Positions 1 through 60,663 of a stretch of 64,000 bases of DNA are shown here, piece by piece. Origin of the DNA: an uncultured Dehalococcoidia bacterium (GTDB lineage: Bacteria > Chloroflexota > Dehalococcoidia > Lucifugimonadales > UBA1123); the NCBI GenBank assembly GCA_951812505.1, contig CATOSI010000002.1:496001-560000 (forward strand). The letters are read 5' to 3'. Position 1 is the first letter of the stretch; each line of letters starts with the position of its first letter. The notes beneath the pieces were generated by a model. It had not been told where the DNA came from, did not search any database, and was given only the letters and a program-made list of their open reading frames with translations. The position numbers and the translations under genes are program-made.

Positions 1-1766
1 GAACTCTCATCCCGCTTCCGAGGCTCTGGTCCCTCAGCGATATATGGACTATCGGACTCTACGGTAAACGACGACGTGAGACGTTGCACATCGGACTTGA
101 TACGGGGTCTGTCTACGAACTCAAAGTATTCATGGATATCGTAAGCGAGCATCCGTGCGCTCAGTCTACGTTGGCGTTCATACACAGAACCGCGGCTCGG
201 ATCTTCCCCGTAGCTGTCGCGGGAAACGAACTTGGCAGGTTCTCCGCCAGATAGCTCGTGTTCGAGCCTTGCACCTTCAGCCGAGTCCTGCAGTATATAC
301 CAGTCATAGTGCTGGGCCAGCAGCCTCTGACGTGCAACGGCCACTGCAACCTCTGAGGAATCGGAAGTGATCCAGCGCCTACCCCATTTCTCCGCGGCAA
401 TGGCCGAAGTGCCTGAACCACAGGTCGGATCAAGGATAAGGTCGCCGGGGTCGGTGGTCATCAGGATGCACTGCTCTATGACAGCCTGTGGAGTCTGGAC
501 CACGTAGGTCTTGTTTCGGTCACCACGAAACACCCAGTTATTAGCACTGATTGGAGTGCCCAGCAGCTCGTCTTCATAGAGTATCCACCGAGGATTCTTT
601 CCCGTACTGAGATCCATCCGTCCTTGGGCAGCTATAGCGTCCATTCCTTCGTGGCTCACACGCCACTGATTTCCTGTTGGACACGGATAAACCGTCGAAT
701 TGTACGTCCAAGACTCTGACCTACCGGTTGTAGAATGACCAGCCGAATCAAGAGGTAGCCTCTGAAACAGCCTAGCGCCTGCCGGAATCAACTTGTCTGG
801 ATCCTCTCTTTCCCTCCGTGTGAGTGGACGGATAGAGTCATTTGACAACTCCAATCCCACATCAAAGCCCATGCGAGATATTTTGTCAGCCCGATCCGAG
901 GCTTCCTCGTGCAGTTGGTGATACTTCACCTGTGACTTGTCCTTCGCAAACCAGACCAACCAATTGCCGATTTCAGGCAGAAGCCTTGTGCTGTAGTTCA
1001 GACTGGTCACGTAAGGAATTGTTGCCACATGATGCTCATGACCGAATACCTCCGACATGAGCATCGCGGCGACATGTAGGTTGCCAGCTCCTATCTGCAA
1101 AAACATGCTGCCGGTGTCCGACAGCAGTGCCTTTGCCAGAACGAGCTGAAGACGTAGCTGATCCAGATAGCTGTGGACACCATTCTTGTAGCTGTCTCTG
1201 AATGCTTTGACCTGCTCTAGGTCGTAGGGAACGGACTCGAGTGTCTCGGTAACATTGAGGTCATCAATCAGGCCCTGCCAGTTGGAACGGAAGTCGATGT
1301 TGTACGGTGGGTCCATGTAGACCATGTCCACCTTTCCCCTCATACCCTCCCGTTCGAGCAGGGATGCCATCATGCGCTGGGATGGAGCTCTTACAAGGCG
1401 ATTCGTCCAGTTGCCGCTGTGCCGATATGGTTCGAACACCGCTCCATCAGGAGTGCCGTTGAACGTAGAGAACATATCGGACTGGATCGTCTCTGAGTCC
1501 TTCAACATAGAGTTCAGAAACCCCACCGCATTCACCTTCTCGTGGACGTAGAGAGGGCCGTGCATCACAGACACATCGTCGGCCTCCCTACCACGCTTCC
1601 AGGCAAGTCGCGGATAGCTGGACTCTTCCACCTCGATGCTAGCCCGTCTATCAGCGACCGTGGCCTCGTCAAGATCGATGGCCGACTCATGCGTGGGGAG
1701 GGCCAGGCGCTTCCTGCCGACATGTTCATATGCCTGCGCTTCGGAATTCTGAGTGTTTGTTGTCAT
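1..1766 (-). CDS. DNA methyltransferase (Type III Mod-like), runs off the left window edge
   Basis: Minus-strand frame open from ATG at 1766 to position 1 (absent from the ORF track because no stop lies in the window). Contains VYMDPPYNIDF and LILDPTCGSGTSAIAAEKW in the same frame. ATGA overlap with the upstream Res gene. Confidence 0.88.
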   Translation of the reverse strand, partial: MTTNTQNSEAQAYEHVGRKRLALPTHESAIDLDEATVADRRASIEVEESSYPRLAWKRGREADDVSVMHGPLYVHEKVNAVGFLNSMLKDSETIQSDMFSTFNGTPDGAVFEPYRHSGNWTNRLVRAPSQRMMASLLEREGMRGKVDMVYMDPPYNIDFRSNWQGLIDDLNVTETLESVPYDLEQVKAFRDSYKNGVHSYLDQLRLQLVLAKALLSDTGSMFLQIGAGNLHVAAMLMSEVFGHEHHVATIPYVTSLNYSTRLLPEIGNWLVWFAKDKSQVKYHQLHEEASDRADKISRMGFDVGLELSNDSIRPLTRREREDPDKLIPAGARLFQRLPLDSAGHSTTGRSESWTYNSTVYPCPTGNQWRVSHEGMDAIAAQGRMDLSTGKNPRWILYEDELLGTPISANNWVFRGDRNKTYVVQTPQAVIEQCILMTTDPGDLILDPTCGSGTSAIAAEKWGRRWITSDSSEVAVAVARQRLLAQHYDWYILQDSAEGARLEHELSGGEPAKFVSRDSYGEDPSRGSVYERQRRLSARMLAYDIHEYFEFVDRPRIKSDVQRLTSSFTVESDSPYIAEGPEPRKRDES

Positions 1767-4753
1767 CAGGACAACTCCTCTTTCGCGTCATCTATCATTG
1801 CGTTCAGATTCGATGGGGAGGTCACATACAGGTATTCCCATCTTCCGTACTCGCTGAGATCAGGGTGGGTGTTGACACCAGGAATCCAGTACTCCTCTGC
1901 GTACCTCCGCTTCACATGGTCGCTGCTGCGCTCCTCGCCCTTCACCTCTATCACGATGTTCAGGATGCTGGCGTCATCCAGTTTCACCTGTGCGACAAAG
2001 TCCGGATGATATCGACGCCAGACGCCACCACTGTCGGAATCGAGCCAAGGGATGTGCCAGCCAAGCCGTTCGTTCCTCACCCATCTGAGTACGTCATCGC
2101 GGAGGTCCAGGGCCTGTGCAACCTGCACCTCCCACCCACTATCACATACGGCATGGCTGATTTCGGACTTGCTCGTTTCACACACGTCCTGACGTCGGGT
2201 CTCGAACTCATCGAACGGCGCGGTGAACCGCCACGCAACGTTGTCGTCAAGCCTTGCGTCGACTCGGCGAGCCCGGGCCCGCTCACCGGCCCTGGTCGCT
2301 CGCTCCAGCCATTCGGCGAGTCCATAGGCCTCCGCGTCCGACGAGTCAGTGTAAACGCTTCCGTCAGTGACGGTTAAGAGTCCGCGGAACATGGCCCTGT
2401 CGACAACTCTGAGAGACTGCCGGAACAGTGCTGCTCTATCGATGCTGGCCGACCCCTCATGCTCTCTGACGAGCTGCCCGGCAAACTGCGCCGCAGCCAG
2501 AAAGGCGACCCTGCGGAATCCAATCGGATCCGCGGTTAGCGTCTCCTCCGGGCCGAGGGTTGCGCCGAGCATCGTCTCGCGCTGGCTGAGGGGGACAAGC
2601 TCCAGTTCCGGAACTTCCTCCCAGTCCTCCACACCGACCACCATCTCCTCATCTCCGCCGAATGCCTCATATTCAACCACATTCGGCCATCGCACACGAT
2701 ACTCTTCGCGTCCCGGCACCAGACCGACAGTGTAGGTTTTCACCGGTTCCTTTGGTTCCGAGGATCCTGTTTCTTCAGATGGGGGAACATAGCTCCAGGG
2801 GACGCCAACGACTGTGGAGTATTCGGGATCGAACCGCCTGGTGTCGTCATCGATTTCGTATATGCGCCTCCGCAGTGTCCTGCCACCCACCTGTTCACAA
2901 AGGAGTTGAGAACCGAACGCCCGGAACCCCACCATGTGTGTAACGGTCCTAGCATCCCACCCCTCGGTGATCATACCAACGCTGACAACGCAGCGGACGC
3001 GAGCGCCTGGCAAGCCAGGCTTCCCAACTGTATTTAGGACACGCCTGAGAACCTCCCGGTCATCCCCTTCTGACAGCCTGCGCTTGTCGCGCCTGTCCTC
3101 GCTCAATCGCGCGTTGGGAAATCTGTCCCGATACAGGTCTGCCAAGACACGTATCGGCTTGGCCAGCGCCTGGTTGAGATCGCCCTCGTTCGATTCCATC
3201 TTCGAGTGCATCAGGATGGTGCTCGGCTCGTCGTATGGCCTGCCGTTGGCGTCCCAGTTACTGAGAAGCTCTCCCAGGCGTCCTGGGTATGCAACTCCTT
3301 CTTCTTGCTCATACCCGGCGATGTACCTGTACAGACCGTTGGCATTGTTGATCGTATTGCTGACCACAACAAATGCTGGCACCTTCGAGTCACTCCGGTG
3401 CCGCTCCCATTCCTGACTCTCCCTCTCGTAGTCGCTGTACATCGTCTGGAGGGCCGACTCCAGGTCTGAGTTGATACGTCGCTCGCTGAACGGACCCTTG
3501 GTATCCTTCGTCTGATTGTAGATGTCCCTGTAGATCGGTATCTGCTCAACGGACAGATTGTCCGACACCGGGGCCCGCGGTATCTTCACGATGCCTGCCT
3601 CGATTGCGTCCACGATGGAGTAGTCTGATATGACCCAGGGGAAGAGTTTGCCCTTCTGATTGCGGTCGCCTGATATAAACGACGGTGTCGCCGAGAAGTC
3701 CACTGCCGAGTGCAGCTTGGACGCCCTGTGGAGCGCACGAATCGCGCCGTACCAGATCATCGCCTCCCTGCCTTCGACACTTCCTCCCCCGCGCTGGTAG
3801 CAGTGGTGACCTTCATCGTTCAGCACTATGACGGGATCATGTCCATACTCGAAGAGGTCCCCAAGGGCACGGGCCAACGCCTCGCTAGAAGCCTCCCGCT
3901 TGGCGGTGTATCCGGAGACTATCTTGCCCATGCTGGACACACCCATCATATCGACGTTCCTCTGCATGAAAGTCTGGAAGTTGACAACTTCAATCTGAGC
4001 AGAGTTGATGCGCCGGCGATACCCTCCGACCGGCGGCAGCAAGTCCATCTCTGTGTAGACGTCGTTCTGATCCGTCGAGTCAGTCCGTAGACCTGACAGG
4101 AGCCTGTCGCGAACAGTTATGCCCGGCGTGATGGCAACGAACCTGTTCGTGAACCGCTCGTCAGCGACGTACTCCCACCGATTCGCAGCCTGCCACAGCA
4201 CCGTCATAGCCATGACTACCGTCTTGCCGACACCCGTCGCCATCTTTACCGCCCAGCGCCGTATGTTGTCGTTGTACTCCGCATTCACCGCCATAAGGAA
4301 CTCGTTAGTCCGGTCCTCGGGCGCAGCTTCTGTCAGGTAGATGAGCGTTCTGATGGCATCGAGCTGTGCAAAGTAGAGACGAATGCTACGCTCAGAATCC
4401 TCCCAGTATCGTAGGAGAGTCAGCGTGACATCGGTGACTCCCGGATATCCCTTCCGGCGCCAGTCTTCAACCCTCTGCCTGAGCTGGTTGATGTGGTCCA
4501 TCGAACTGAGGGGATCCTGTGTCCCGGGCAGGACCTGCTGGTATCCCATGGGCAGGGGTACGGGGGACAGATACGCTTCCGTTGGACGCCGGCCGGGACT
4601 TGCGTCACCCTTGATCGCCAGTCCGCTGTTATCGACGCGGTAGTGCCAGCACGGAAAGTCGTACGGAGAGTTGATGACAGGTTGACGTACGGGATCGTTC
4701 GGTGGTTTCCCGCACCCTGATTCGCACATTGTCACTCCTCCTGCCTCGACCAT
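1766..4753 (-). CDS. Type III restriction enzyme Res-like subunit (DEAD/DEAH helicase plus C-terminal nuclease-like region)
   Basis: 995 aa; MATGVGKTVVMAMTVLW Walker A, VIVLNDEGHHC Walker B-like, EQVGGRTLRR helicase motif VI-like, C-terminal IEVKGE nuclease-like motif. Confidence 0.88.
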   Translation of the reverse strand: MVEAGGVTMCESGCGKPPNDPVRQPVINSPYDFPCWHYRVDNSGLAIKGDASPGRRPTEAYLSPVPLPMGYQQVLPGTQDPLSSMDHINQLRQRVEDWRRKGYPGVTDVTLTLLRYWEDSERSIRLYFAQLDAIRTLIYLTEAAPEDRTNEFLMAVNAEYNDNIRRWAVKMATGVGKTVVMAMTVLWQAANRWEYVADERFTNRFVAITPGITVRDRLLSGLRTDSTDQNDVYTEMDLLPPVGGYRRRINSAQIEVVNFQTFMQRNVDMMGVSSMGKIVSGYTAKREASSEALARALGDLFEYGHDPVIVLNDEGHHCYQRGGGSVEGREAMIWYGAIRALHRASKLHSAVDFSATPSFISGDRNQKGKLFPWVISDYSIVDAIEAGIVKIPRAPVSDNLSVEQIPIYRDIYNQTKDTKGPFSERRINSDLESALQTMYSDYERESQEWERHRSDSKVPAFVVVSNTINNANGLYRYIAGYEQEEGVAYPGRLGELLSNWDANGRPYDEPSTILMHSKMESNEGDLNQALAKPIRVLADLYRDRFPNARLSEDRRDKRRLSEGDDREVLRRVLNTVGKPGLPGARVRCVVSVGMITEGWDARTVTHMVGFRAFGSQLLCEQVGGRTLRRRIYEIDDDTRRFDPEYSTVVGVPWSYVPPSEETGSSEPKEPVKTYTVGLVPGREEYRVRWPNVVEYEAFGGDEEMVVGVEDWEEVPELELVPLSQRETMLGATLGPEETLTADPIGFRRVAFLAAAQFAGQLVREHEGSASIDRAALFRQSLRVVDRAMFRGLLTVTDGSVYTDSSDAEAYGLAEWLERATRAGERARARRVDARLDDNVAWRFTAPFDEFETRRQDVCETSKSEISHAVCDSGWEVQVAQALDLRDDVLRWVRNERLGWHIPWLDSDSGGVWRRYHPDFVAQVKLDDASILNIVIEVKGEERSSDHVKRRYAEEYWIPGVNTHPDLSEYGRWEYLYVTSPSNLNAMIDDAKEELS

Positions 4754-5729: not shown

Positions 5730-7093
5730 AGTAGTGTCCCTTAGAGTGGTGTAATAGAGAAGGTGGCCTAGCATAGATAAAGCCACCGCGTCATCCTTAG
5801 AGAAGTAGAAGCTCAATGCAAGGAGGACGGCGATGGCAAGAGACAGTATCGATATTTTGGAGCTATTGCGCAAGCGGGGTGTGGACGGAGACGTGGACTT
5901 TCTTCGCGAGGCGCTGCGGGTGTTGATGGATGCGATCATGGATGCCGAGGTCTCAGCGAGGATCGGCGCCGATCATGGTGAACGGACTCCCGACCGGCTC
6001 ACTCATCGCAACGGGTACCGCTCCCGCACGTGGGACACGAGGGTCGGCACCATGGAGCTTCGCATACCCAAGCTGAGGGAGGGGAGCTACTTCCCTTCTC
6101 TGCTGGAGCCTCGAAGACGCAGTGAGCGAGCACTTCTGGCGGTGATCCAGCAGGCGTACGTCGAGGGTGTGTCGACGAGGCGGGTGGACGACCTGGTCAA
6201 GGCGCTGGGATGCGAGGGCATCTCCAAGAGCCAGGTGTCTCGTATCTGTGTGGAACTCGACGGTGTGGTCGACAGCTTCCTGGGTCGGCCGCTGGACACA
6301 GGACCGTACTGCTACGTGTGGCTGGACGCGCTGAGCCAGAAGGTCAGAGAGGAAGGCAGGATAGTCAACGTATCTGTGGCTGTGGCGACCGCGGTCAACG
6401 CCGAGGGCAAGCGTGAGATAGTGGGTATAGACGTGGGAACGAGTGAGGACGGTGCTGGCTGGCGTTCCTGCGATCCTTATCCGCCAGGGGCCTTACTGGT
6501 GTTCAGTTGGTGACCTCGGATGCACACCGTGGACTGAGGGACGCGATAGCGACTGTGTTCGCCGGCGCCAGTTGGCAGAGATGCCGCACCCACTTCATGA
6601 CCAACCTTCTCACCCGCGTACCCAAGAGTGCCCAGCCCTGGGTTGCGACCATGGTCCGCACGATCTACCAGCAGCCGTCTGCCGAGGAGGTGCACTCCCA
6701 GCTCGACAGAGTCGTGGATCAACTGAGTCCCCGGTTCCCGGAAGCATCCTCGATGTTGGCAGAAGCCGGAACTGACATCTTGGCCTTCACATCCTTCCCC
6801 AGCGCTCACTGGAAGCAGGTGTGGTCGAACAATCCCCAGGAGCGGCTGAACAAAGAGATAAGGCGCAGAACCGACGTGGTGGGCATCTTCCCGAACCGGC
6901 CTGCGGTGCGTCGGCTGATCGGAGCCGTACTGGCCGAGCAGCACGATGAGTGGGTAGTGGGCAGACGATACCTGACGCCGGCTTCAGCGACCTATGACAA
7001 AACGCTGCCGGAGGCCCAGATCACACAGCCGACTGCGGCCTGACTAGAACAAAAGGATTGACGAACTCCCACACCACGTACGGGGACTTGACC
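5730..7093 (+). mobile_element. IS256-family element, copy 1, transposase frameshifted
   Basis: 8-bp direct repeats GGCGTCCA at 5722-5729 and 7094-7101; near-identical to copy 2; 1364 bp against 1368 bp. Confidence 0.9.
5833..7043 (+). pseudogene. IS256-family transposase, frameshifted
   Basis: ORFs 5833-6513 and 6507-7043 together match the intact 404 aa copy at 20912-22126; 4-nt deletion near 6453. Confidence 0.9.
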
Positions 7094-9470: not shown

Positions 9471-10919
9471 ATGGTTGACCGAATCAACGCCGAAATCCAA
9501 AATCGCACGCTGTTCATCGGGGACAACCTCGACATACTCCGCGGCATCAACTCCGAGTCCGTGGACCTCATCTACCTCAACCCACCGCGCAACGCTGGCG
9601 AGGCGCAGGAGGGTGGCCCCAGCACCGCAGCACGAGGCGTTTCCTTCCGAGATGTCTGGACGGGCTCTGACCTAAAGGCCGAATGGACAGCAGAGATTGA
9701 CCTCCGCCAACCGGACATCCTGTATGCCATCAACGCGGCGAAGGTCACTCATGGAGATTCGATGGCCGGATATCTCACCTACATGGCCGCTCGTCTGATT
9801 GAACTCCAGCGCATCCTCAAGCCCGCCGGCAGCATCTACCTCCACACAGGACCAGAGGCCACTCACTATCTCAGGGCCGCGATGGACGCTCTATTTGGGC
9901 ACGAGAACTTCAAGAGCGAGATAGTCTGGCAGAGAGAGGCTCGGTACGCCGGTGGTCGCAGATGGAGATGGGCGCACGACACACTCCTCTTCTACACGGG
10001 ACCGCATAGGCACAGATGGAACACAGTCCACATGGAACAGCCACTCGATTATCTGGAGCGTAACTACAGGCACGAGGACGAGAGAGGCAGATACCAGCTG
10101 GGTCCCATCACCGCCAAGGGACGCAGAAGTGGCGAGTTGAACATCGAATGGGGCGGTTTTGTTCCAGGTAGTCGCGGTCTACACTGGAGCCTGCCCCTGG
10201 CCGCTATCAGGAGAGAGTATCCAGATCGAGACGACCTGGCCGAGCTTAGTACGCACCAGAAGCTGGATTTAATGCTCCAGGCAAGACTGATACACAAAGC
10301 TGAATCAACTACGATACCGCGTTATAAGATATACGCCGACGACATGGCCGAGCGCGGCCCTCTCCTGGATATCCTGACCAACATAGGTCGGGTGGAATGG
10401 AACTCCAGAGAGCGCACTGGATGGCCGGGTCAGGTTCCAGAATCGCTTCTGAAACTGATCGTCAGAGCCTCTACTAATGAAAACGACATAGTCCTGGATC
10501 CCTTCTGCGGGTCGGGAACCGCATGCTGTGTTGCCGAGACTCTGAAGAGACGCTGGATCGGTATCGAGCAGGTCCCAAAGGCCAAGGACATACTTGGCAG
10601 TCGGCTTCCGAGCGGAGACGCCGACCGGATGACCGTCCGCGACACGGCACCCAAGAGGACAGACTGCTCGGAAAAGCTCGACCCGACGAAAACCTGGGAA
10701 CTACTGCATCACCGACAGTCCGGCACCTGCAACGGGTGTGGCTACGAGTTGCCTTCTCACCTCTTGACAATAGATAGGGTCGCCCCGATACCTCGACGCG
10801 CACCCGACAGCCCCGATAACCTTCAGTTTCTGTGCCTCGGCTGCAAGACTATAAAGGGCGAGAACGACATGAATCACCTGCGGATAGAGCTTCACCAGCG
10901 GGGCATCCGTCCACTCTAG
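9471..10919 (+). CDS. DNA methyltransferase fused to C-terminal HNH-like domain
   Basis: [11 protein letters not shown] motif IV-like, [27 protein letters not shown] motif I-like; C-terminal [44 protein letters not shown] is HNH-like. Confidence 0.85.
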
Positions 10920-13005: not shown

Positions 13006-14357
13006 CAGGCTGCGGAAGAATGGGTTGCAGAGCGGCGTAGGAGCAAGACTCGCTGCCTTGAAGAGCCTCATTCCGGCGCTTTTTGGCTCTCAGGAGGTTC
13101 CTGCACCGCTGTAATCGGCTTTCAGAAGGTTCGGCAGACACACCTCGCCCTGGGCAGAGCTATGCGAAGACGGGGACTCTGGCCTCTTCCTCAGCTATCA
13201 GTCTCGACATTCTCACCAGGTTGTACGCAGTAGCCACCAACTCCCCATACAGTCCGGTTCTCTCCACTCCGCGATACCGACTCCGACGAAAGCCTCCCAC
13301 TGTCTTCATCCACCCGAAGATCGACTCCACACGCTTGCGAACCTTCTGACTCGCCGCATACCCGGCATGATGGGTCGTCCTCCCGTCTATCGCAGACCAT
13401 CTCTTCTTCTGGGCCACGTGCGGAGTGATGTTCAGGTCCCTGCACTCGGCAACGAAGTCCCTGCTGTCGTAGCCCCTGTCCGCTCCAACAGTCAGACGGC
13501 GGCTACCGGGTATCCGGATCAACATGTCCAGCGCCGCATCCCTCTCTGCCATGCCATTGGCCTCGGTCAGTCGGAAGTCGCTCACAAGACCGTGCCTGTT
13601 GTCCATAAGCGCATGGGCCATGAACACCAGCTTCGCCTCCTTACCCTTGCCCTTCCTCATCAGCCTGGACTCGGGGTCGGTCGTGCTCTCGTGTGTCTCG
13701 TTGCTCAGCTTCTCCCCCCGAAAGTCCTCCGTACGGCTTCCACCTTCCCCCGGACCCTTCGGGTTATCGTCAGCATCCTCATCCCGTCTTCTGAAGCTCT
13801 TTATGCTCGCGGCAGCCTCTATCAGCGTACCATCCACGCTGAAGCGCTCGTCTGACATGAGACCTCGGCGGTCAGCCTCGTACGCCACCTCCTCGAACAG
13901 GGTCCTCCCCACCCTGTGTCTGAGCAGTCTTCTTCTGTTCTTGGTGAACACGGTCGCGTCGAAACTCGGCTCCATAAGGTCCATGTCCAGAAACCAGCGA
14001 TACAGCAGGTTGTAGTCCAGTTCCTGGCAGAATGCTCTCTCACTGCGTATCGAGTACAGGGAGATCAGAAGAAGAGACTTCAGCAGTCGTTCGGGTGGGA
14101 CGGAGGCTCGACCGACACTGGAGTACATCCTGTCGAAGTCGTCCGACATGCGGGAGAGAACGTCCTCGGCGACCTGTTTGATAGTCCTAAGAGGGTGGTC
14201 CGGTGGAACTCGTTCGTCGAGGTTGACGAAGGCAAGCATAGTGGACTGTGGGTTGCGTTTGCCTCTCATGGGACGGTCTCCTCTGTTGTCGCTTGTGGAG
14301 CTATTTTACTCCACAGACTCAGGGAAGACCTCCTATGCGGCTTTTTTCAGCAGCCTG
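13006..14357 (-). mobile_element. IS5-family insertion sequence
   Basis: Terminal inverted repeats CAGGCTGCGGAAGAA / CAGGCTGCTGAAAAAA; 4-bp TSD CTAA at 13002-13005 and 14358-14361 (fits the YTAR target preference of IS5). Confidence 0.92.
13160..14269 (-). CDS. IS5-family transposase
   Basis: 369 aa DDE transposase with DERFSVDGTLIEAAAS, LTVGADRGYDSRDFV and RKRVESIFGWMKTVGG motifs. Confidence 0.93.
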   Translation of the reverse strand: MRGKRNPQSTMLAFVNLDERVPPDHPLRTIKQVAEDVLSRMSDDFDRMYSSVGRASVPPERLLKSLLLISLYSIRSERAFCQELDYNLLYRWFLDMDLMEPSFDATVFTKNRRRLLRHRVGRTLFEEVAYEADRRGLMSDERFSVDGTLIEAAASIKSFRRRDEDADDNPKGPGEGGSRTEDFRGEKLSNETHESTTDPESRLMRKGKGKEAKLVFMAHALMDNRHGLVSDFRLTEANGMAERDAALDMLIRIPGSRRLTVGADRGYDSRDFVAECRDLNITPHVAQKKRWSAIDGRTTHHAGYAASQKVRKRVESIFGWMKTVGGFRRSRYRGVERTGLYGELVATAYNLVRMSRLIAEEEARVPVFA

Positions 14358-20861: not shown

Positions 20862-22229
20862 GGTCAAGTCCCCGTACGTGGTGTGGGAGTTCGTCAATCC
20901 TTTTGTTCTAATCAGGCCGCAGTCGGCTGTGTGATCTGGGCTTCCGGCAACGCTTTGTCGTAAGTCGCTGAAGCGGGCGTCAGGTATCGTCTGCCCACTA
21001 CCCACTCGTCGTGCTGCTCGGCCAGTACCGCTCCGATCAGCCGACGCACCGCAGGCCGGTTCGGGAAGATACCGACGACATCAGTCCTGCGCCTTATCTC
21101 CTTGTTCAGTCGCTCCTGGGGATTGTTCGACCATATCTGCTTCCAGTGAGCACTGGGGAAGGATGTGAAGGCCAGGATGTCAGTTCCGGCTTCTGCCAAC
21201 ATCGAGGATGATTCCGGGAACCGGTCGTTGAGTTGATCCACGACTCTGTTGAGCTGGGAGTGCACCTCCTCGGCAGACGGCTGCTGGTAGATCGTACGGA
21301 CCATGGTCGCCACCCAAGGCTGAGCACTCTTGGGTACGCGAGTGAGTAGGTTGGTCATGAAGTGGGTGCGGCATCTCTGCCAACTGGCGCCGGCGAACAC
21401 AGTCGCTATCGCGTCCCTAAGTCCTCGATGTGCATCCGAGGTCACAAGCTCCACACCCGCAAGGCCCCTGGCAGACAACGAGCGCAGGAACGCCAGCCAG
21501 AACGCACCGTCCTCACTCGTTCCCACGTCCATGCCCACGATCTCACGCTTGCCCTCGGCGTTGACCGCGGTCGCCACAGCCACAGATACGTTGACTATCC
21601 TGCCTTCCTCTCTGACCTTCTGGCTCAGCGCGTCCAGCCACATGTAGCAGTACGGTCCTGTGTCCAGCGGCCGACCCAGGAAGCTGTCGACCACACCGTC
21701 GAGTTCCACACAGATACGAGACACCTGGCTCTTGGAGATGCCCTCGCATCCCAGCGCCTTGACCAGATCATCCACCCGCCTCGTCGACACACCCTCGACG
21801 TACGCCTGCTGGATCACCGCCAGAAGTGCTCGCTCACTGCGTCTTCGAGGCTCCAGCAGAGAAGGGAAGTAGCTCCCCTCCCTCAGCTTGGGTATGCGAA
21901 GCTCCATGGTGCCGACCCTCGTGTCCCACGTGCGGGAGCGGTACCCGTTGCGATGAGTGAGCCGGTCGGGAGTCCGTTCACCATGATCGGCGCCGATCCT
22001 CGCTGAGACCTCGGCATCCATGATCGCATCCATCAACACCCGCAGCGCCTCGCGAAGAAAGTCCACGTCTCCGTCCACACCCCGCTTGCGCAATAGCTCC
22101 AAAATATCGATACTGTCTCTTGCCATCGCCGTCCTCCTTGCATTGAGCTTCTACTTCTCTAAGGATGACGCGGTGGCTTTATCTATGCTAGGCCACCTTC
22201 TCTATTACACCACTCTAAGGGACACTACT
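20862..22229 (-). mobile_element. IS256-family element, copy 2, intact
   Basis: 8-bp TSD GCAGAGGG at 20854-20861 and 22230-22237; terminal repeats around GTCCC...GTGGTGT. Confidence 0.93.
20912..22126 (-). CDS. IS256-family (mutator-type) transposase
   Basis: 404 aa; YCYMWLDALSQKVREEGRIVNVSVAVATAVNAEGKREIVGMDVG, WQRCRTHFMTNLL, WSNNPQERLNKEIRRRTDVVGIFPN. Confidence 0.95.
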   Translation of the reverse strand: MARDSIDILELLRKRGVDGDVDFLREALRVLMDAIMDAEVSARIGADHGERTPDRLTHRNGYRSRTWDTRVGTMELRIPKLREGSYFPSLLEPRRRSERALLAVIQQAYVEGVSTRRVDDLVKALGCEGISKSQVSRICVELDGVVDSFLGRPLDTGPYCYMWLDALSQKVREEGRIVNVSVAVATAVNAEGKREIVGMDVGTSEDGAFWLAFLRSLSARGLAGVELVTSDAHRGLRDAIATVFAGASWQRCRTHFMTNLLTRVPKSAQPWVATMVRTIYQQPSAEEVHSQLNRVVDQLNDRFPESSSMLAEAGTDILAFTSFPSAHWKQIWSNNPQERLNKEIRRRTDVVGIFPNRPAVRRLIGAVLAEQHDEWVVGRRYLTPASATYDKALPEAQITQPTAA

Positions 22230-22309
22230 GCAGAGGGTATCCTCTGTGCACAGCGGCCCCCAGTCAGGCGTCCCGAGGGCCTGGGAATTTCGATAGACAT
22301 ATCGTCCGA

Positions 22310-22965
22310 CTTGCTTCCGGCCTTCGGCCCACTAACCTGTGAAAAGCCCCTCTCTGTCAACGCAGAAGGGGGTCTTTCTCGTCAGGTTAGTGTTGCCCCT
22401 GCTGGTGCGGAGGGGCTGAATTTACAAAGATACCTCCCGCAGGAGGCTGTTTCAGCGTGTTTTGATGCGGAAGCAAGCTGCGACAGCAGCCGTCTCCGCA
22501 ACGCTGGTCCTGCCAGGACCGAGCGCGCTGTGCCGCCTTTCGGCGGCGCGTCATGGCGCCGTTGGGCGCGATGCGCGGCCGGGCTCCGGTCGCCTGGGAG
22601 AGCTGCGACAGCAGCTCTCAGTTCCGATGGTCACCGACAGGTGTCCGTCGGGGCGAGGTGAGCCCTGGTGAGACAGGGGGATCTGAGATGTAAATCTCAG
22701 GTCCCTTTCGATCAATAGGCCTTGGCCTGTGTATCCCCAAGTATTATGGGGCAAACATTGATCGGGCGTGCCTCGGTGCGCCCTGTGGGGGTGCATCTCC
22801 GGTTAATACGGAGCTGCCCTGTGGTCCTGCGCTTGGTATCCGTCTTTACTTTGCCGACAGGCAGTTCAATGCGGATGCTCTTGCGCTGGTCCGTTGACTG
22901 GTGTGGGTGGGTGTATCTCCGATGATACGGAGTTGGTGTATCTCCGATTAATACGGAGCATTCCT
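22310..22965. other. hairpin-dense noncoding segment
   Basis: More than ten short inverted repeats in a row, e.g. ACTAACCTG..CAGGTTAGT, GCCCCTgctggtgcggAGGGGC, GAGAGCTGCgacaGCAGCTCTC, CTGAGATgtaAATCTCAG, CCCCaagtattatGGGG, CTCCGattaataCGGAG. Confidence 0.6.
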
Positions 22966-23547
22966 TTCCCAGCCATTCACCTTGCGTCGTTCCTTCGATC
23001 TTCTACCGACAGATAGTCGATCTAAGGATGACCGCAAGGGTGAAGCGCGATATGCACTTCGAGAGTCCAGGTTCTTGTCCCTGTTCCTCCCTCCTATGTC
23101 ACTTATAGTGTGCCCAGAATGGGGTGTTGTCGCCATCTTCATAATCATGGCCTGATGTGGGGTATACCAATCTGTTCAGGGGTATATGGGACGTAATACA
23201 CATATCCGTCGGCGTTGATATGAGGAGATATGGGTATATTTGAGAATCTGTGAAAAACTGCCGATTTTGCCATTTTCCCAGGAAAATGGACGGTTCATAG
23301 CTGAGGAAGCCGGCCCGAGAGGGCTGCGGTGGTTTCCGAGTGTCGGTCGATTTTGCCAAGCAGGGGGGCGCAGGCGGGATAAATCCCGCTCTTTCTGGGG
23401 TGAATGCCGGTCGCTGAGCCCCTTGAAGCGTAAGCTGTTGGAACTGTGTCCTGTCCATCCTTGAAAAGCCGGCGTAAGTTTGCGCCGACTGTTCTACAAT
23501 GATGTCCAAATGGTCTTTTCTCTGAGAGTGTGAGGTGGTCTTTCGGC

Positions 23548-23910
23548 ATGACTACGGAGATAACTGAAAGAAAGCGGCGTGATCCCGGCCTCATCGTGGA
23601 GATATTCGCCGACGGCCGCATAGCCGTCAACCTGGGAAAGCGCGCGGGGGTAACTGAGGTCACCCGTCTGTTCGTGGTGCGCGACTACGACGAGATGCGC
23701 GACCCCCAGAGCGACAAGCCCCTCGGTCGCATCATGAACCCGAAGGTCGAGCTGTCGGTGGACACCGTGGACGACCACTTCTGCGTCACCTATCCCATCG
23801 TCTCCTTCGGCGATACCATCCGCCGCGCGCTGCCCTTCATGTCTGTGGACAGGGGGAAGGAACCGAGGGTGGCCGACGAGGTCGTTTTCGCCGACGACTG
23901 GGACCTTTAG
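23548..23910 (+). CDS. hypothetical protein
   Basis: ORF with coding-like composition (MTTEITERKRRDPGLIVEIFADGRIAVNLGKRAGVTEVTRLFVVRDYDEMRDP...). Confidence 0.6.
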   Translation: MTTEITERKRRDPGLIVEIFADGRIAVNLGKRAGVTEVTRLFVVRDYDEMRDPQSDKPLGRIMNPKVELSVDTVDDHFCVTYPIVSFGDTIRRALPFMSVDRGKEPRVADEVVFADDWDL

Positions 23911-23929: not shown

Positions 23930-24388
23930 TTGGAGCGATGCTACGGGTGCGATGAGATGATCGGCGCGACGCCTGTCGGAGAGGGCATCGCCGGCTGCGC
24001 ATTGTGCGACGCGGACCTGTCCATCTACGGAGTCGTGGACGCGCCCGGGACCGGCCCCGTCTGCCTGGGATGCGCGCTCGGTCTCAGGCGTGATCTCGAG
24101 GTGTTTGTGTCGAGCCAGCTGGCCCTGAATCTCGCGCGTCTTTCGGCCAACGAGATATCGTTCACAACGGCGCGAACGATGGGGATTTCATGCGGGTCCT
24201 GCGGGCGTCTGACGCCGCCGTCTCTGCCCCGATTTCCGGGGGCGGAAGGACGCTGCTTTCTGTGCAGCGTCTACGGCGTTCTGGGAGAAGAGTTCACGGC
24301 GATCCCGGTGGAAATTCTCAGGGCGATGTACGGCGCCGTCGCGGGCGGATGCCTGCACGGTCCGGAGATGAGGAGGACGGTCTCCTGA
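23930..24388 (+). CDS. cysteine-rich putative zinc-binding protein
   Basis: CYGCDEMIG..GCALCDADL..VCLGCALGL..CGSCGRLTP..CFLCSVYG; TTG start; convergent with cas6e. Confidence 0.55.
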   Translation: MERCYGCDEMIGATPVGEGIAGCALCDADLSIYGVVDAPGTGPVCLGCALGLRRDLEVFVSSQLALNLARLSANEISFTTARTMGISCGSCGRLTPPSLPRFPGAEGRCFLCSVYGVLGEEFTAIPVEILRAMYGAVAGGCLHGPEMRRTVS

Positions 24389-24479: not shown

Positions 24480-25169
24480 CTATGGCCGGAGAAGGCCCCT
24501 TATCATCATCATGCCATATCCGTACGCCCTGTGTCTTCCGATGCCGGCGAGCATGAACTCGCCGAGTCGGTCCGGCCGTCTTATCCGCAGCGTTCCCGTA
24601 ATATCGGCGCGGGTTATCGGCAGGGGACTGTGGCGTCTTCGCCTGATCTGGTAAGTAACGTCGTATGAGACGAGCCGCGCGGTCTCGACGGCGACGATGC
24701 CGGATCTCTCCGCTCTGTCCCTCAGCCAGTCGACGTAGGCGTCCTGCCGGCTGGTGCATCCGTCCCTCTGGGCGAGCCTGTAGGCGTCGATCTCGCGGAC
24801 GCCGTTGGACCTTCTGTGGGGGACCGCGAGCACGCTGAAGCTCAGCCGGTCGCAGGCCTGAAAGGACGGCAGCTCGATGGACCTCAGTATATCGACGGAC
24901 AGGGCCTTTTCCCGGGTCGTGCCGGCGGATTTGGCACGAGCGCGTTCTCTGATTTCGTCTGCGGTCATGGGGCTGTAGGCCAGCAGACGCCGCCGGTATC
25001 GGCCGTTTACGACTCTGAAGGGCCGGAGTATCCTCCCGGGTCCGAACGTCTCCCTGATGAGGCAGTGAATGCGGTATGAGGGATCGGTTCCCGCGTAGGC
25101 CGGGCGCTCCGCCCATCGTCCGTAGTATCTCTCGTCCATGTCGGTCGAAATCAGGTGAACTGTTGTCAT
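24480..25169 (-). CDS. cas6e: CRISPR-associated endoribonuclease Cas6e-like
   Basis: C-terminal GIGRHRAYGYGMMMIRGL glycine-rich motif; ATGA overlap with the upstream cas5e stop; operon position. Confidence 0.88.
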   Translation of the reverse strand: MTTVHLISTDMDERYYGRWAERPAYAGTDPSYRIHCLIRETFGPGRILRPFRVVNGRYRRRLLAYSPMTADEIRERARAKSAGTTREKALSVDILRSIELPSFQACDRLSFSVLAVPHRRSNGVREIDAYRLAQRDGCTSRQDAYVDWLRDRAERSGIVAVETARLVSYDVTYQIRRRRHSPLPITRADITGTLRIRRPDRLGEFMLAGIGRHRAYGYGMMMIRGLLRP

Positions 25170-25933
25170 GGCCTCTCCGGGGTCTCTATTTCAAAGAGCG
25201 CCGTCAGTTCCTCGCCTCCGTGAAGGCCGCCGTCGCTCCAGTTTCTTCTGTCGGTGGAGGAGACGGTCGTGGCGCGCGATGGCGCATATGAGATGTGGTC
25301 TCCCGACATGGCGACGGACTGGATTTCGCCCCGCATCTCGACGGACGTTGCGAGAGCGGTGAGCGGGTCGGGGGCGTCGGCCAGACCGAGCAGGACGCGG
25401 TCCTGCGGAGCGCAAGACTTTCTTCCGATGTAGAGCGGCCTTGTGGGTCTTGCGAGCGCTGCGGCGATATCCCGCAGGGTCGGGATTTCCGACGCGGGAT
25501 CGAGTGATATGGCGGCGTGAAGATGCAGGTCCTGTATGTAGTCCCTGTATCTCAGATACGGCGATACGGTGTTGGGTTTTATGGCGGTCCTGACGGCCTC
25601 CGCCCTGCCGGTCGTCGTCCAGGCCGACTTCGGCGCGGGGTCGATGACGGTCTGAAAATCGGTGAGGGTCGAGTATTGCTCCCCGCGTCTCTCTGCGACG
25701 CTCGTTATCGACATGCGTTCCTGAAGCCTGTCGAGGTCTTCTGCGTCCCGGGGATACCTGTATCCGAGGGCGCTTGCAAGCAGTCCGGTGAGCATCGAGA
25801 CGGGGGGATGATGCGAGGTGTGTCCGAGCGCGTCGCCCCGGACGTTTCCGAAGGATGCCAGGGGCGCGCTGAGTCGTACGAGGAGATATGTTTCGGTCTC
25901 CGGGGCTGGCGCGGCGAACCTGCTTCCGCTCAT
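25166..25933 (-). CDS. cas5e: CRISPR-associated Cas5e-like
   Basis: Manually set start at 25933: MSGSRFAAPAPETETYLLVRLSAPLASFGNVRGDALGHTSHHPPVSMLTGLLASALGYRY; ATGA overlap with cas7e stop. Confidence 0.9.
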   Translation of the reverse strand: MSGSRFAAPAPETETYLLVRLSAPLASFGNVRGDALGHTSHHPPVSMLTGLLASALGYRYPRDAEDLDRLQERMSITSVAERRGEQYSTLTDFQTVIDPAPKSAWTTTGRAEAVRTAIKPNTVSPYLRYRDYIQDLHLHAAISLDPASEIPTLRDIAAALARPTRPLYIGRKSCAPQDRVLLGLADAPDPLTALATSVEMRGEIQSVAMSGDHISYAPSRATTVSSTDRRNWSDGGLHGGEELTALFEIETPERP

Positions 25934-27120
25934 GCTGTTTCCGCCCGTCCCGATCGCACCGATTCGGCAACCCATTCGGCGACGTCGGGAAGGGACGTGG
26001 GGGCGGCCCCGGGCATCGGAACGTCGTCTGTGGAGGCGTATCTTCTGGCCTCCTGCCGTCCGTACATTCTGTCGGTATCTTCGAGATGGCCGCCGAGGGC
26101 GAGTGCGGCCTGCCGGGTTGTGGGAGCGCAGGGCGTTATGTACGCGCCTGAGAGCTGTCTGGGCTGCTGCTCGCCGATCTCCACCAGGACGGTGGAGGCG
26201 TATGAGAACGGAGCGGTCCGGCTTCTCATTCCGGTGGCCGGAACGGTCGCGGCGAGCATGACGATTCTTCGCGCGATCTCGGCGGCGAGGTCCCTGTCGG
26301 ACTCGAGCCAGTCGTCGGGGTCTTCGCCCTCGAGGTTGGAGACCAGTGTGGGCACGTCGATGCAGATGTATCCGTAGTAAACGGCGGTGGTGAGTTCGTT
26401 CTCTCCCATGTAGGCCGCGTCGTTCCTGAGCTGGCTGACTATGTCGTCCATGGCCTGAAAGTAGTCCATCTCCGACTCGATGGGAGATACGCCGATGCTG
26501 TGGGTCACCTGCAGGGCGGAGTGGATGTTGGCGAGTGGGTCGGCGGTCATTTTTCTGCCGAAGACGGCGGCCTGCACGCCGGCGTGGAGTCAGAGGCCCT
26601 GTCTGAACGCCTGGATGTTGGCGTCTGTGGTGGAGCGGCGAGAGGTCTGCCCGAAGATCGCTGAGGTCATGGAGCGGGCCTCCGCGGGGCTTGACGACTC
26701 TAGGTATATCCTGTCTGCCTGGGCCGAGAGCCACTCGGTCTCCGGCAGTCCGAGGACTATCGCCTGTCTGCTCTCTGCGGCGTCTGCCTTCGGGCCATGG
26801 AGTCCGAGGTTCATCTCCGATTCTATGGCGTCTATCGTCGGGTGGTCGGCGTCGTCGCGCTGTCTGAGGGACTGGCATATCCTGAGGGAGACTATCTCCC
26901 TGGACCGTACCGACAGGGGGATGCTGGGGATGTTCCTCAGGGAGTGTGGTCCGCTGTCGGTTCTCATGGCGTACTTTCGCGCCTGGCTGGAGATCCGCGC
27001 CCGGGTTATTCCCCCGAGCGAGATGCGCTTTGCGCGCCGGGTCCGGTCGCTGTTGGGCAGCGCCGGGCCGTGGGCGTGGAGCGTGTGAATCTGTACGAAC
27101 CGGGAGGCTGGCTCGCTCAT
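25930..27120 (-). CDS. cas7e: CRISPR-associated Cas7e-like, with one in-frame TGA at 26592-26590
   Basis: ORFs 26590-27120 and 25930-26577 share one frame. N-term RFVQIHTLHAHGPALPNSDRTRRAKRISLGGITRARISSQARKYAMR; C-term AAVFGRKMTADPLANIHSALQVTHSIGVSPIESEMDYFQAMDDI. Confidence 0.9.
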
Positions 27121-27309
27121 GGAGAGACTCTTTTGGTCTTCATGTCGTTGATGTTGGATGGGGTGGCCGTTTTGTCCGCTGACCTGTCCTGGGTTGGGTT
27201 GGTCAAGGAGTCTGTTTCAGCGCGTTTTGATGCGGAAGCAAGCTGCGACAGCAGCCGTCTCTGCAACCACGGTCTTGTGAAACGGCTCCTCGAGTTGGGT
27301 TTTGGGCGC

Positions 27310-27401
27310 GTGTTCCCGTCGCTGTCCAGCAGTAGCTCGCTGCTGGGTGTTCTGATCATGTGAAGTTGTATGAATCGGGGGTATGGATGTGGCTCGTTCA
27401 T
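27310..27401 (-). pseudogene. 5' remnant of a second cas7e
   Basis: MNEPHPYPRFIQLHMIRTPSSELLLDSDGNTRPK resembles MSEPASRFVQIHTLHAHGPALPNSDRTRRAK of the full cas7e. Confidence 0.6.
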
Positions 27402-27443
27402 GGTGAAACTCCTGTATTGTTCATATCATCGATGTTATAGGAG

Positions 27444-28013
27444 GTGGCGGTTTTGTCCGCTGACTTTTCGCGGGACGGGTTCGTCCGCAGCTGCCTGTGG
27501 CTCTGTGAGCTGCTGGGCTCCTACTCCTTTCCGCAGGACCTTCTGCGGGGCCTGCGTCATCCGGAATCCGGTGGGCCGGACCATCTGGTGGCCGAGCTTA
27601 TGGGGCGTGCGGAGACGGCGGTGGGGTTTGTGATGGATGAGCCTCTGGCGGGGGCGTGGGGCGCCGCGGTCTCCGCCGCCGCTCTCATGTCGGCGCGCGG
27701 GGTGTCGGCGCACGATCCCAGGATGGCCCTCGGCCGGGCGCTCTGTGGGGTCGCGGGCGAGGCGGACCTTGGCCTTCTTCTGTCGGCGTCCTCGCCTGCC
27801 GAGTTTGAGCGCGTCTTCGTCCGCATGGCATCCCTGATGGGCGCGGAGCGGCTCAGGGCGGACTGGACGGAGATGGCTGCTCTTCTCCATGACAAAAGTG
27901 GAACCAGTTCCACTCTTATTTCCGCGGACGGGTCGGGGGATGGGTCTCTTTTGGCGAAGGTCGCGGCGGACTTTCACAGGGCCGCCGCGTACCGGGGGCG
28001 GATGGGCCGCTGA
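27444..28013 (+). CDS. cse2: CRISPR-associated Cse2/Cas11e-like small subunit, opposite strand to the other cas genes
   Basis: GTG start after AGGAG. DPRMALGRALCGVAGEADLGLLLSASSPAEFERVFVRMASLMGAERLRADWTEMAALLHD parallels the E. coli Cse2 pattern SLGRAL..RIFQLIRADRTADMVQLRRLLTHAEPVLDWPLMARML; ends KVAADFHRAA. Confidence 0.78.
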   Translation: MAVLSADFSRDGFVRSCLWLCELLGSYSFPQDLLRGLRHPESGGPDHLVAELMGRAETAVGFVMDEPLAGAWGAAVSAAALMSARGVSAHDPRMALGRALCGVAGEADLGLLLSASSPAEFERVFVRMASLMGAERLRADWTEMAALLHDKSGTSSTLISADGSGDGSLLAKVAADFHRAAAYRGRMGR

Positions 28014-28095
28014 GTCTCATGCGAGGGAGGCTCTGGCATCGTCCGGTTCCGCGATCTTGTCGCGGTGGTCTATAATTGAAGGAGGAGACCATTGT

Positions 28096-29058
28096 ATGAC
28101 CATTCACATCAATACCACCGACGATTTTCTTCGCGCTCTCCGAGGCAGCGAGGAGTTCAGGTCCGCCGCCCGCCGCGAACTGCTGACAGAGGAACTTCTG
28201 GAAGTGCCGGGTCAGCTGGTCGATATTCGAAAGACCCAGAATGCCATGCTGGAAGAGCAGGGGGAGATGCGAAAGACCCAGAACGCCATGCTGGAAGAAC
28301 AGGGGGAGATGCGCGCCAAGTCCGACGCTCTTCAGGAGACCCAGAACGCCATGCTCGAAGAGCAGAGGGAGATGCGTAAGACTCAGAACGCCATGCTGGA
28401 AGAGCTGAGGGAGATGCGCGCCAAGTCCGACGCTCTTCAGGAGACTCAGAATGCCCTCCTTGAGACCGTGGCGACGCTGCTCAGGGATACGAGCGAGATC
28501 AAGACGGATACACGCGCGCTGCACGGCATGTACAGGCGCGAGCATCAGGACCTCCATAGGTTCAGGGGGAACTATGCAAGTCATGCGGCTCGCACGAACA
28601 GATACGAAATAGTCAAGCTGTTCGCCAGGTCCCGAATGATGAGGCGGATACGCTACAACGTGCTCAGCAGCGATGCGCTGGATATGATGATCGAGGAGAA
28701 TTACGATTCCCTGGACAAACTCGGTCTCAGCGACGAGGCGCTGAACTCCTTTCCCGTGGCAGACCTCGTCGTCGAGGTCACAGAACGAAGAACCTCCAGG
28801 CCGGGTTTCTACATCGTAGTGGAAGCGTCATACACGGTAACGGGTAGTGACGTGGCACGAGCGTCCGAGCGCGCCAGGATTTTACAATGCGCGACCGGTC
28901 TGGACGCATACGCCGTTGTCGCAGCCGTCAGGTTGGCCCCGAATATCCAGGATACTGTCGAGGGCAATATCGAGAGATACCTGGAGGCGGGAGACGAGGA
29001 TGGAGTTTTCTGGTTTCCCATAGTCGAGGAGGACCTGGAACCGCCGGATCCCTGTTAA
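28096..29058 (+). CDS. coiled-coil protein with C-terminal PD-(D/E)XK-like domain (DUF3782-like family)
   Basis: AGGAGG ribosome site before ATG at 28096; repeated KTQNAMLEEQGEMR coiled coil; C-terminal FYIVVEASYTVTGSDVARASERARILQCATGLDAYAVVAAVRLAPNI. Confidence 0.75.
   Translation: MTIHINTTDDFLRALRGSEEFRSAARRELLTEELLEVPGQLVDIRKTQNAMLEEQGEMRKTQNAMLEEQGEMRAKSDALQETQNAMLEEQREMRKTQNAMLEELREMRAKSDALQETQNALLETVATLLRDTSEIKTDTRALHGMYRREHQDLHRFRGNYASHAARTNRYEIVKLFARSRMMRRIRYNVLSSDALDMMIEENYDSLDKLGLSDEALNSFPVADLVVEVTERRTSRPGFYIVVEASYTVTGSDVARASERARILQCATGLDAYAVVAAVRLAPNIQDTVEGNIERYLEAGDEDGVFWFPIVEEDLEPPDPC
28231..28470 (+). repeat. in-frame tandem repeats, 42-nt-related units (TQNAMLEEQxEMRx)
   Basis: Five copies of TQNA(M/L)LE in about 240 nt. 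Confidence 0.85.
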
Positions 29059-29143: not shown

Positions 29144-30574
29144 TCAGTGTAGCCCGGCTTCGAGCAGGGAGCGGGCGATGGCGGCGGAACCATGTCTGTC
29201 GAGCGCTGCCGGTGCGTGAGTTTCGATGATGTGCTCCAGCGCCTGCCTCGCGCTGTGGGCCGCCGGGACCCCCGGGCTCCGTCCGGCGTCGTATATCCTC
29301 GGGGCGATTTCGGACGCGAGTTTTTTCGCGGCGTCGGACTGCCGGTTCATCCCGCCGGCGAGATAGGCTACGGCGGCGGTTCTCAGGGATCTGAGCGCGC
29401 GGCTGTGTTCGCCGGAGATGCGCATAGATTCGGGCGTGGGTCTGTCTGATCGGAGTGAGGTGATTACGCTCGCTGGGACCGGCGCGTAGGCCTCGTGATA
29501 TCCGGAGGTTCTGCCCCGTCCGCGCGATAGCGCCGAGGCCGAGAGATAGAGAGGACTGTCCTCGATGTTTTCGACCTCCTCGTTCGTCGGCAGGGCGAGA
29601 ATCGGCAGATCCCAGACGTCGGGCCTGGTGAGCAGGCTGTCGATGAGGCCGCGTGAGAATCCGGCGCTGTCGACGGTGAGCGGGGAGCCTGTTCTCTTTG
29701 ACTTCGGAGCCCATGGATCTGTAATTGACCCGCTGATTTCACTGGTTCTTTCTATGCGTGGGGAGGCGGCTGGTCTGGGACATGCGGATATGACGTTCTC
29801 GTCGGCTCTGAGGCGTATTATTCTGGCGACCTCTATGCACAGCGGATGGACGGAGTTGGGCTCAAGTGATTCGCTCTTGTTTCCGTTCCACGGGACGGTC
29901 CACAGAAGGGCTGGATCGCTGGAACTATGGCGTCCGTCGGCCAGTAGTATTCTGGCGTCGCGCTCTATCTGTTCTGAGAGGATGGGAGAGGTGGTGAGGG
30001 CGACGTGGGGTCTGCTGCCGAACCCGCCGCCCATGCGGGCGATTCCGTGGTTGCCCGTTCCCAGAAATCCCCCGTGGGTCTGGATGGATATGAGGGCGTA
30101 TATCCAGGCGTCGGGCGGTGCCGGTCTATCGGTCCTTCTGCGCGGCTCGAACTGCCTGCTGTGAATGGGTATGTCGATGTCGTCGGGGCTTGGGAGGTTC
30201 CTTGTAGGGGTCTGGTCCGTGGGCGGCTGCAGGAAGGCGGGCTGGTCGAGGTCGGGGCTTACGAGAGTCCATGGGGCGTCCGGGTCTTTGGATTCTGAGG
30301 TCAGGTCTCTGAGGAGTTTCTGCCATCGGCCTGGGGACCGCGGCGGAGCAGTCAGCCCGGCGCGCTGGCAGCCGATGACCGCGAGCTGCGCCAGAAATGC
30401 CTTGAGGGGATGTCTCTGGTGTCGTCTGGCTGTGATGAATGAGGCTATTCTTCCCTCTGTGGCCAGGGCGAGGGTCTGCGGCAGGGTGAGAACGCGCTTT
30501 CGTCCGAGCGTGTCCCTGACGGGCAGGACTGGATCTGTGAGCAGGTTGTTGGGATGGTTCATTGTAGGTCCCAT
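29144..30574 (-). CDS. cas8e: CRISPR-associated Cas8e (Cse1/CasA)-like; likely start at 30562 (MNHPNN)
   Basis: NLLTDPVLPVRDTLGRKRVLTLPQTLALA, LDQPAFLQPP, THGGFLGTGNHGIARMGGGFGSRPHVAL resemble the Cse1 pattern. Confidence 0.87.
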   Translation of the reverse strand: MGPTMNHPNNLLTDPVLPVRDTLGRKRVLTLPQTLALATEGRIASFITARRHQRHPLKAFLAQLAVIGCQRAGLTAPPRSPGRWQKLLRDLTSESKDPDAPWTLVSPDLDQPAFLQPPTDQTPTRNLPSPDDIDIPIHSRQFEPRRRTDRPAPPDAWIYALISIQTHGGFLGTGNHGIARMGGGFGSRPHVALTTSPILSEQIERDARILLADGRHSSSDPALLWTVPWNGNKSESLEPNSVHPLCIEVARIIRLRADENVISACPRPAASPRIERTSEISGSITDPWAPKSKRTGSPLTVDSAGFSRGLIDSLLTRPDVWDLPILALPTNEEVENIEDSPLYLSASALSRGRGRTSGYHEAYAPVPASVITSLRSDRPTPESMRISGEHSRALRSLRTAAVAYLAGGMNRQSDAAKKLASEIAPRIYDAGRSPGVPAAHSARQALEHIIETHAPAALDRHGSAAIARSLLEAGLH

Positions 30575-60549: not shown

Positions 60550-60663
60550 ATTACCTCGCTTGATGAACCCAGATCGGCATTGCCCATTATTCTACATGAC
60601 ATCGAGGAACTTGACACTGAGTCAAACAACACCCGACACCACGCGATTCGCTTTAGTGTTCGT

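Follow-up and report, generated by a model that had tools for sequence, protein, structure and literature searches.

Ectopic CRISPR repeats and the locus of this study

CreA and CreR are mini-CRISPR, ectopic-repeat RNAs encoded beside type I cas operons (PMC9458426, PMC12737573). The published pattern of their repeats is paired, degenerate and cas-linked (PMC9458426). Racr RNAs are solitary repeat units carried in prophages, described as lacking an association with cas genes (PMC10651486). GOLLD and ROOL are large phage RNAs (PMC12286853).

The window analyzed here is a 64,000-nt stretch, positions 496001–560000, of a contig from an uncultured Dehalococcoidia bacterium. Between positions 22310 and 22965 it contains a hairpin-dense segment next to a type I-E Cascade operon (Table 1). 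We read this segment as a two-layer noncoding RNA region at the end of a derived type I-E locus on a prophage remnant, with a mini-CRISPR on the minus strand and a folded RNA on the plus strand, and give this reading a probability slightly above one half (about 0.55). Most descriptions of ectopic CRISPR repeats concern short, simple units; at this locus, repeats of a degenerate I-E type appear within a large, strongly folded RNA locus, next to a prophage Cascade without acquisition and cutting. If true, this reading would join the question of how phages use nuclease-less Cascades with that of ectopic repeat evolution.

Like CreA and CreR, the locus has a few degenerate repeats (R1–R4) that lie on one strand, outside a normal array and adjacent to cas genes, with a spacer of array length and with stems kept while the sequence has diverged. 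Unlike in those systems, R1–R4 come after cas6e rather than before cas8e and sit inside a hairpin-dense region; neither a toxin gene nor a promoter target was found at the locus, and the window holds no main array.

Folding and hairpin density of the segment

The 656 nt of the segment fold at -347 kcal/mol on the plus strand, against a mean of -269 (sd 7.2) for 20 shuffles (z -10.9), and at -297 kcal/mol on the minus strand (z -12.2), with no shuffle folding as well on either strand. The original prediction had described a dense run of stem-loops and named, as its refutation, folding no better than shuffled controls together with an absence of homologues showing compensatory changes. The run and the better folding are borne out, and all six of the stem-loops it quoted lie where it placed them. 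It was also right to see no convincing open reading frame: the plus-strand frame open from 22020 to 22661 is antisense to the IS256 transposase and has no Pfam match at E ≤ 1.

In 120-nt tiles, the fold signal spans about 22320 to 23100. The energy is concentrated in 22310–22720 (z -12.3 on the plus strand, -10.1 on the minus strand), and 22720–22965 folds less strongly (z -3.2 and -3.9); a real CRISPR array of a relative gives a z of about -3. The genome background was a 464-kb sample of the same contig, which includes the window, from an assembly of 3.8 Mb. The top-folded 200-nt interval on the plus strand of this sample is that at 22601. Positions 22280–23060 contain 16 perfect hairpins (stem of at least 5, loop 3–8), where 780 nt of the sample have 4.8 on average (sd 2.3), and the hairpin-richest 780-nt interval of the sample starts at 22231 (n = 17). 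Further hairpin-rich stretches without an Rfam match occur on the same contig (L044 10530–11700, L037 2340–3900 and L035 17550).

Table 1. Positions of features in and around the hairpin-dense segment (window coordinates).
Feature	Position	Strand	Evidence or remark
IS256-family element	20912..22229	-	transposase 20912–22126; right end 22229 abuts hairpin segment
Main folded domain, compact stem-loop run	22290..22720	+	fold z; scattered hairpins to 23016
GACA-loop hairpin h1, CGATA-GACA-TATCG	22291..22304	+	
Near-perfect 63-nt hairpin CACTAACCTG...CAGGTTAGTG	22330..22392	+	outer helix probability 1.0
Terminator-like core AAAAGCCCC...GGGGGTCTTT	enclosed by 22330..22392	+	
GACA-loop hairpin h2, GCTGC-GACA-GCAGC	22477..22490	+	within 62-nt stretch copied at 27206–27267
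GACA-loop hairpin h3, GAGAGCTGC-GACA-GCAGCTCTC	22598..22619	+	
GACA-loop hairpin h4, CACC-GACA-GGTG	22632..22643	+	
Hairpin of 13–15 bp, GUAA (GNRA) loop, G-U pairs on plus strand	22677..22706	+	probability 0.98
R1, degenerate type I-E repeat GTTTGCCCCATAATACTTGGGGATACACA	22728..22756	-	PSSM 16.5 bits, rank 4 in 928 kb
Spacer-like 33-nt stretch CCCACAGGGCGCACCGAGGCACGCCCGATCAAT between R2 and R1	22757..22789	-	I-E spacer length
R2, degenerate I-E repeat GGCAGCTCCGTATTAACCGGAGATGCACC	22790..22818	-	PSSM 10.7, rank 62 of 928 kb
GACA-loop hairpin h5, TTGCC-GACA-GGCAG	22851..22864	+	
R3, repeat copy, direct tandem with R4, no spacer	22910..22934	-	
R4, degenerate I-E repeat GAATGCTCCGTATTAATCGGAGATACACC	22935..22963	-	PSSM 12.6, rank 22 of 928 kb
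GACA-loop hairpin h6, CTACC-GACA-GATAG, one mismatch	23003..23016	+	within long hairpin 22980–23039
Small ORF where relatives have cas1-cas2	23530..23910	+	
Small cysteine-rich ORF	23930..24388	+	CxxC motifs
cas6e	24480..25169	-	TIGR01907, PF08798
cas5e	25166..25888	-	TIGR01868, E 1e-36
cas7e, in-frame TGA (CTC TGA CTC) at 26590–26592, otherwise open	25930..27120	-	
62-nt copy of 22441–22502, at junction of duplicated cas7e 5' end	27206..27267	+	95%
cas11e (cse2), inverted relative to other cas genes	27444..28013	+	PADLOC Cas11e 1.8e-6, PF09485 5e-4
cas8e, divergent	29144..30574	-	PADLOC Cas8e 3.5e-88; 33–39% identity to relatives

Degenerate type I-E-like repeats on the minus strand

R1–R4 are four mutually diverged, paralogous 25-nt hairpins within 22729–22960. 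Read on the minus strand, which is the strand of cas6e, they show a stem followed by ATACACC, where the 3' handle of the relatives' repeats is ATAGACC. I-E systems are found in 22 genomes of the order, the present genome included, and the array repeat GGTTCCCCCGCACACGCGGGGATAGACC occurs in most of the relatives' I-E loci fetched. The relatives' arrays come after cas6e-cas1-cas2 and consist of tens of near-identical repeat copies.

A PSSM built from 11 array repeats of these relatives was scanned over 928 kb of strand, and the ranks of R1, R4 and R2 (4, 22 and 62) indicate an I-E-like repeat sequence and 3' handle. Among 400 shuffles, 4 reached the score of R1 and 1 had three hits at such a level on a single strand. 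Built from window positions 22594–22802 alone, a covariance model placed the relatives' CRISPR arrays among its top non-self matches in 920 kb, with the model-to-array alignments falling over R1 in the expected orientation. Because the repeat copies are paralogues, the PSSM and covariance evidence is partly one piece.

Between R2 and R1 lie exactly 33 nt, as long as an I-E spacer of the relatives (61-nt period). With the relatives' arrays the repeats further share the stem layout, the 3' handle (ATA-AC-) and the orientation and position relative to cas6e, downstream of which they lie by 1.5 kb with two small ORFs between. They differ from those arrays in several ways: R1–R4 are not near-identical direct repeats, R3 and R4 have no spacer, and neither Cas1 nor an over-cut-off Cas3 accompanies them. 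The repeat spacings (62 nt for R2–R1, about 119 for R3–R2 and 25 for R4–R3) do not follow the regular 61-nt period of repeat plus spacer. The stretch 22728–22963 is best read as a degenerate mini-CRISPR of ectopic repeats belonging to the prophage-borne Cascade. The 91-nt gap between R2 and R3 and the missing spacer between R3 and R4 count against a mini-CRISPR. No target of the 33-nt R2–R1 spacer was found in the window, where its best 9-nt seed matches have neither promoter context nor a PAM.

A decayed CRISPR-like locus was among the explanations first offered for the segment. This holds for the minus strand of 22728–22963 and fails for the remainder, and the notion of decay needs rewording: the sequences of R1–R4 have degenerated, yet changes in the stems are compensated, a trait of ectopic repeats, where simple decay would leave broken stems. 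An array of the ordinary I-E kind that became irregular once Cas1 was gone would explain the array position, the strand and the repeat likeness. However, two stem pairs distinguish R1 from the other copies, R4 among them, and both are compensated, which neutral decay does not yield; moreover, most of the hairpins (22310–22720) have neither repeat likeness nor a 61-nt period, and that region folds with a z of -12 against about -3 for the relative's real array. Plain decay of an array is thus improbable.

In many of the relatives' I-E loci, between one and three degenerate repeats lie outside the arrays, immediately upstream of cas8e and in divergent arrangement to the main array. In L096, they lie at 14148 and 14210 (ATTCCCCCACTACCGTGGGGATAGGCC then GGTTCCCCCGCACACGCGGGGATAGACG). 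Paired or single degenerate repeats at this place are also present in L086 (14074/14124), L091 (5353/5414, minus strand), L092 (6490/6545) and L094 (14234–14356), and further ones in L095 (9174/9235), L097 (6063/6126, minus strand) and L101 (7822). R1 is closest to the L101 unit (GTTTGCCCC...GGGGATA-AC) and to psiR1 of L092. These cas8e-upstream repeats look like CreA/CreR-type units, and the presence of paired copies in many Dehalococcoidia I-E loci makes a regulatory role directly testable. The 11-mer AGCTGCGACAG of hairpins h2 and h3 directly follows a degenerate-repeat GGGGAT at L090 6211 and L092 6568; these two loci belong to one relative, about 0.8 occurrences are expected by chance in 3.4 Mb, and the match may be a coincidence.

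A rearranged Cascade with no Cas1 or Cas3 match over cut-off

The type I-E Cascade of the locus is rearranged and prophage-borne, and has no Cas1 or Cas3 match over cut-off. Cas1 had no match in the genome, in a search that was positive in 9 of 14 control genomes, and for Cas3 nothing in the genome exceeded the cut-off. Because cas7e carries an in-frame stop, the CRISPR system may be dead or inactive, and this stop together with the inverted cas11e suggests that the effector may no longer assemble. The 5' end of cas7e is duplicated about 280 bp apart (window 27120–27460), with the 62-nt copy of part of the hairpin segment at the junction. In cas8e, the DMLVTSKNHDLK stretch, well conserved in relatives, is replaced by a different sequence.

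Under the mini-CRISPR reading, a transcript of minus-strand 22963–22728, laid out as R4–R3, the gap, R2, the 33-nt spacer and R1, would be cut at the R hairpins by the Cas6e of the locus itself, yielding one crRNA-like guide with the handle ATGCACC. Cascade (Cas8e, 11, 7, 5 and 6) would take this guide to DNA. It would bind and repress that DNA, in the manner of CreA/CreR-type ectopic-repeat RNAs. Cas6e processing of the minus-strand transcript and DNA binding without cutting are the likely ancestral working. Binding and repression are proposed rather than acquisition or cutting because the genome has no Cas1 match and no Cas3 over cut-off.

R1–R4 could instead form a Racr-type RNA anti-CRISPR, a set of prophage repeat mimics that titrate the Cas6e/Cas7e of competing I-E systems. 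They are indeed diverged I-E repeats in a prophage, as Racrs are solitary prophage repeat units (PMC10651486), and the order commonly has I-E systems. However, Racr units are described as not cas-associated, whereas R1–R4 are four units beside cas6e that adjoin a Cascade operon, and R2, the 33 nt and R1 together make up a spacer unit. Nor does the host genome contain a cas5e besides that of the locus. An anti-CRISPR of this kind is therefore doubtful.

A putative folded RNA on the plus strand

Pairing probabilities on the plus strand are about 1 over 22330–22392, 22433–22446, 22506–22520, 22530–22549, 22556–22569, 22598–22619, 22621–22654 and 22677–22706. Six of the stem-loops have GACA tetraloops, and the five among them with perfect stems fall within 560 nt. 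On the plus strand of the window, these five and the copy at 27247, inside the same cas locus, are the only ones, and the minus strand has two. As background, 800 kb of same-genome strand contain 16, and the relatives' 3.4 Mb contain 45, with no two of them less than 600 nt apart. The chance of five in 560 nt is about 1e-12, or about 1e-10 after correcting for loop choice. Within the family the loop is constant, and the stems vary yet remain paired. The covariation score over four distinct GACA stems is 0.90, against 0.30 in shuffles, and was reached by 1 of 500 shuffles; because no homologue of the folded domain was found, this support is limited to internal paralogous hairpins. The GACA hairpins were also considered as CRISPR repeats and rejected, as they show no repeat likeness and no period.

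In strand-neutral helices, G-U pairs outnumber A-C pairs on the plus strand by 15 to 1; shuffles give 6.1 and 3.5, and the observed difference was reached in 0 of 150. This asymmetry and the GACA family point to selection on a plus-strand RNA, and the C(UUCG)G, GUAA and CUUG loops in the folded region fit such an RNA. The structured noncoding RNA of the original prediction is thereby favored in part, by the folding, the 15:1 asymmetry and the compensated GACA stems, and remains without a homologue. We infer the plus-strand RNA from a single locus, because it has no known family or homologue. No sigma-70-like promoter was found.

Such an RNA would be a compact stem-loop structure over 22290–22720, with scattered hairpins to 23016, antisense through the mini-CRISPR, and its repeated GACA loop probably binds a protein. 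That the folded RNA and the repeats are on opposite strands counts against the two-layer reading. A more far-reaching possibility, which we hold tentatively, is an undescribed RNA class in which a GACA-loop stem-loop array is functionally tied to a phage-borne Cascade without Cas1/Cas3, with a degenerate guide coming from one strand and, from the other, a folded RNA that would regulate this guide or pair with it.

It is conceivable, at odds well short of those for the two-layer reading, that the segment encodes a single large, ornate, GOLLD/ROOL-like phage RNA on the plus strand, expressed by the prophage and folding into a multi-domain particle, with the CRISPR likeness of R1–R4 being incidental. 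As with GOLLD and ROOL, the segment is prophage-borne, roughly 650–800 nt, non-coding and dense in helices. A length of about 750 nt, a strong fold, the same three loop types, a plus-strand G-U bias that is greatest in 22720–23060 (9:0) and a prophage encoding terminase, portal, capsid protease and an integrase linked to a tRNA all agree with this explanation. Unlike those RNAs, however, the segment is not near a tRNA island; no homology was found, and no Rfam match comes near cut-off even at E ≤ 5. It would also have to be by coincidence that R1–R4 resemble I-E repeats, in that orientation and with the 33-nt geometry, and that they lie at the position of the array.

Palindromes acting at the DNA level, as a replication or packaging origin or as transposase hairpins, could also produce strong folding on both strands. 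Loops of the c(GNNA)g type are stable in DNA as well, and a 62-bp hairpin is copied 4.7 kb away. The 15:1 asymmetry, however, has no reason at the DNA level, and the stems share no common sequence. The suggestion that the segment is a palindrome array of a mobile element has no support: the latter point applies to it too, the one 62-bp copy lies in the same cas locus, and there is no other copy elsewhere in the genome. A function in DNA form accordingly appears unlikely. REP/BIME or other dispersed palindromes would be present in many copies, and only the one extra 62-nt copy was found in the genome. As to attC sites, inspection by eye gave no GTTRRRY/RYYYAAC pair, and no integron integrase was noticed. 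The rivals rank in the order GOLLD/ROOL-like RNA, Racr set, plain array decay and DNA palindrome array.

Searches for homologues and families

The Rfam search that had been proposed for the segment was run at gathering and permissive (E ≤ 5) thresholds and returned no family near cut-off, GOLLD and ROOL included. An RT-7-like match (19 bits against a cut-off of 116.8) was attributed to chance. When the segment was compared by BLAST with 60 relatives, 393 genomes of the class, 400 of the phylum, phages and plasmids, no homologue emerged; apart from the 62-nt copy, all matches were short, GC-rich and attributed to chance, most of them falling in 22507–22609. The covariance model of 22594–22802 matched only itself in the 393 class genomes. 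Altogether, the folded domain had no homologue, by DNA or model, in about 790 genomes, phages, plasmids and viral contigs. Viral contigs were scanned with five patterns, four of which had no match. The fifth, GAGCTGCGACAGCAGCTC, had 14 matches, nearly all without a second GACA hairpin nearby, and these were read as chance in coding sequence.

Prophage and insertion sequence setting

The right flank of the locus has genes for terminase, neck, capsid protease, portal and major capsid proteins, as well as a tyrosine integrase next to a tRNA, and to the left lie IS5-, IS21- and IS256-family elements; the region is therefore an IS-riddled prophage remnant. Because the hairpin segment begins at the IS256 end (22229), its 5' part may be missing or cut. 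The tRNA end, a second copy of which would mark the left prophage border, has none in 464 kb, and no viral relatives of the neighboring ORFs and the capsid protein were found.

A second IS256-family transposase, split across two frames, occupies window positions 5833–7043. Restriction-type genes stand left of the cas locus: one encodes a large ResIII helicase protein whose C terminus gives a weak TnsA-like match (1766–4753) and the other an N6/N4 DNA methylase with HNH (9471–10919). Tandem repeats of 42 and 105 nt lie at 28228–28455 within a coiled-coil ORF (27889–29058), and a 474-nt tandem duplication (2.1 copies, 83% match) is found at 59573–60568 within an ORF spanning 57901–60549.
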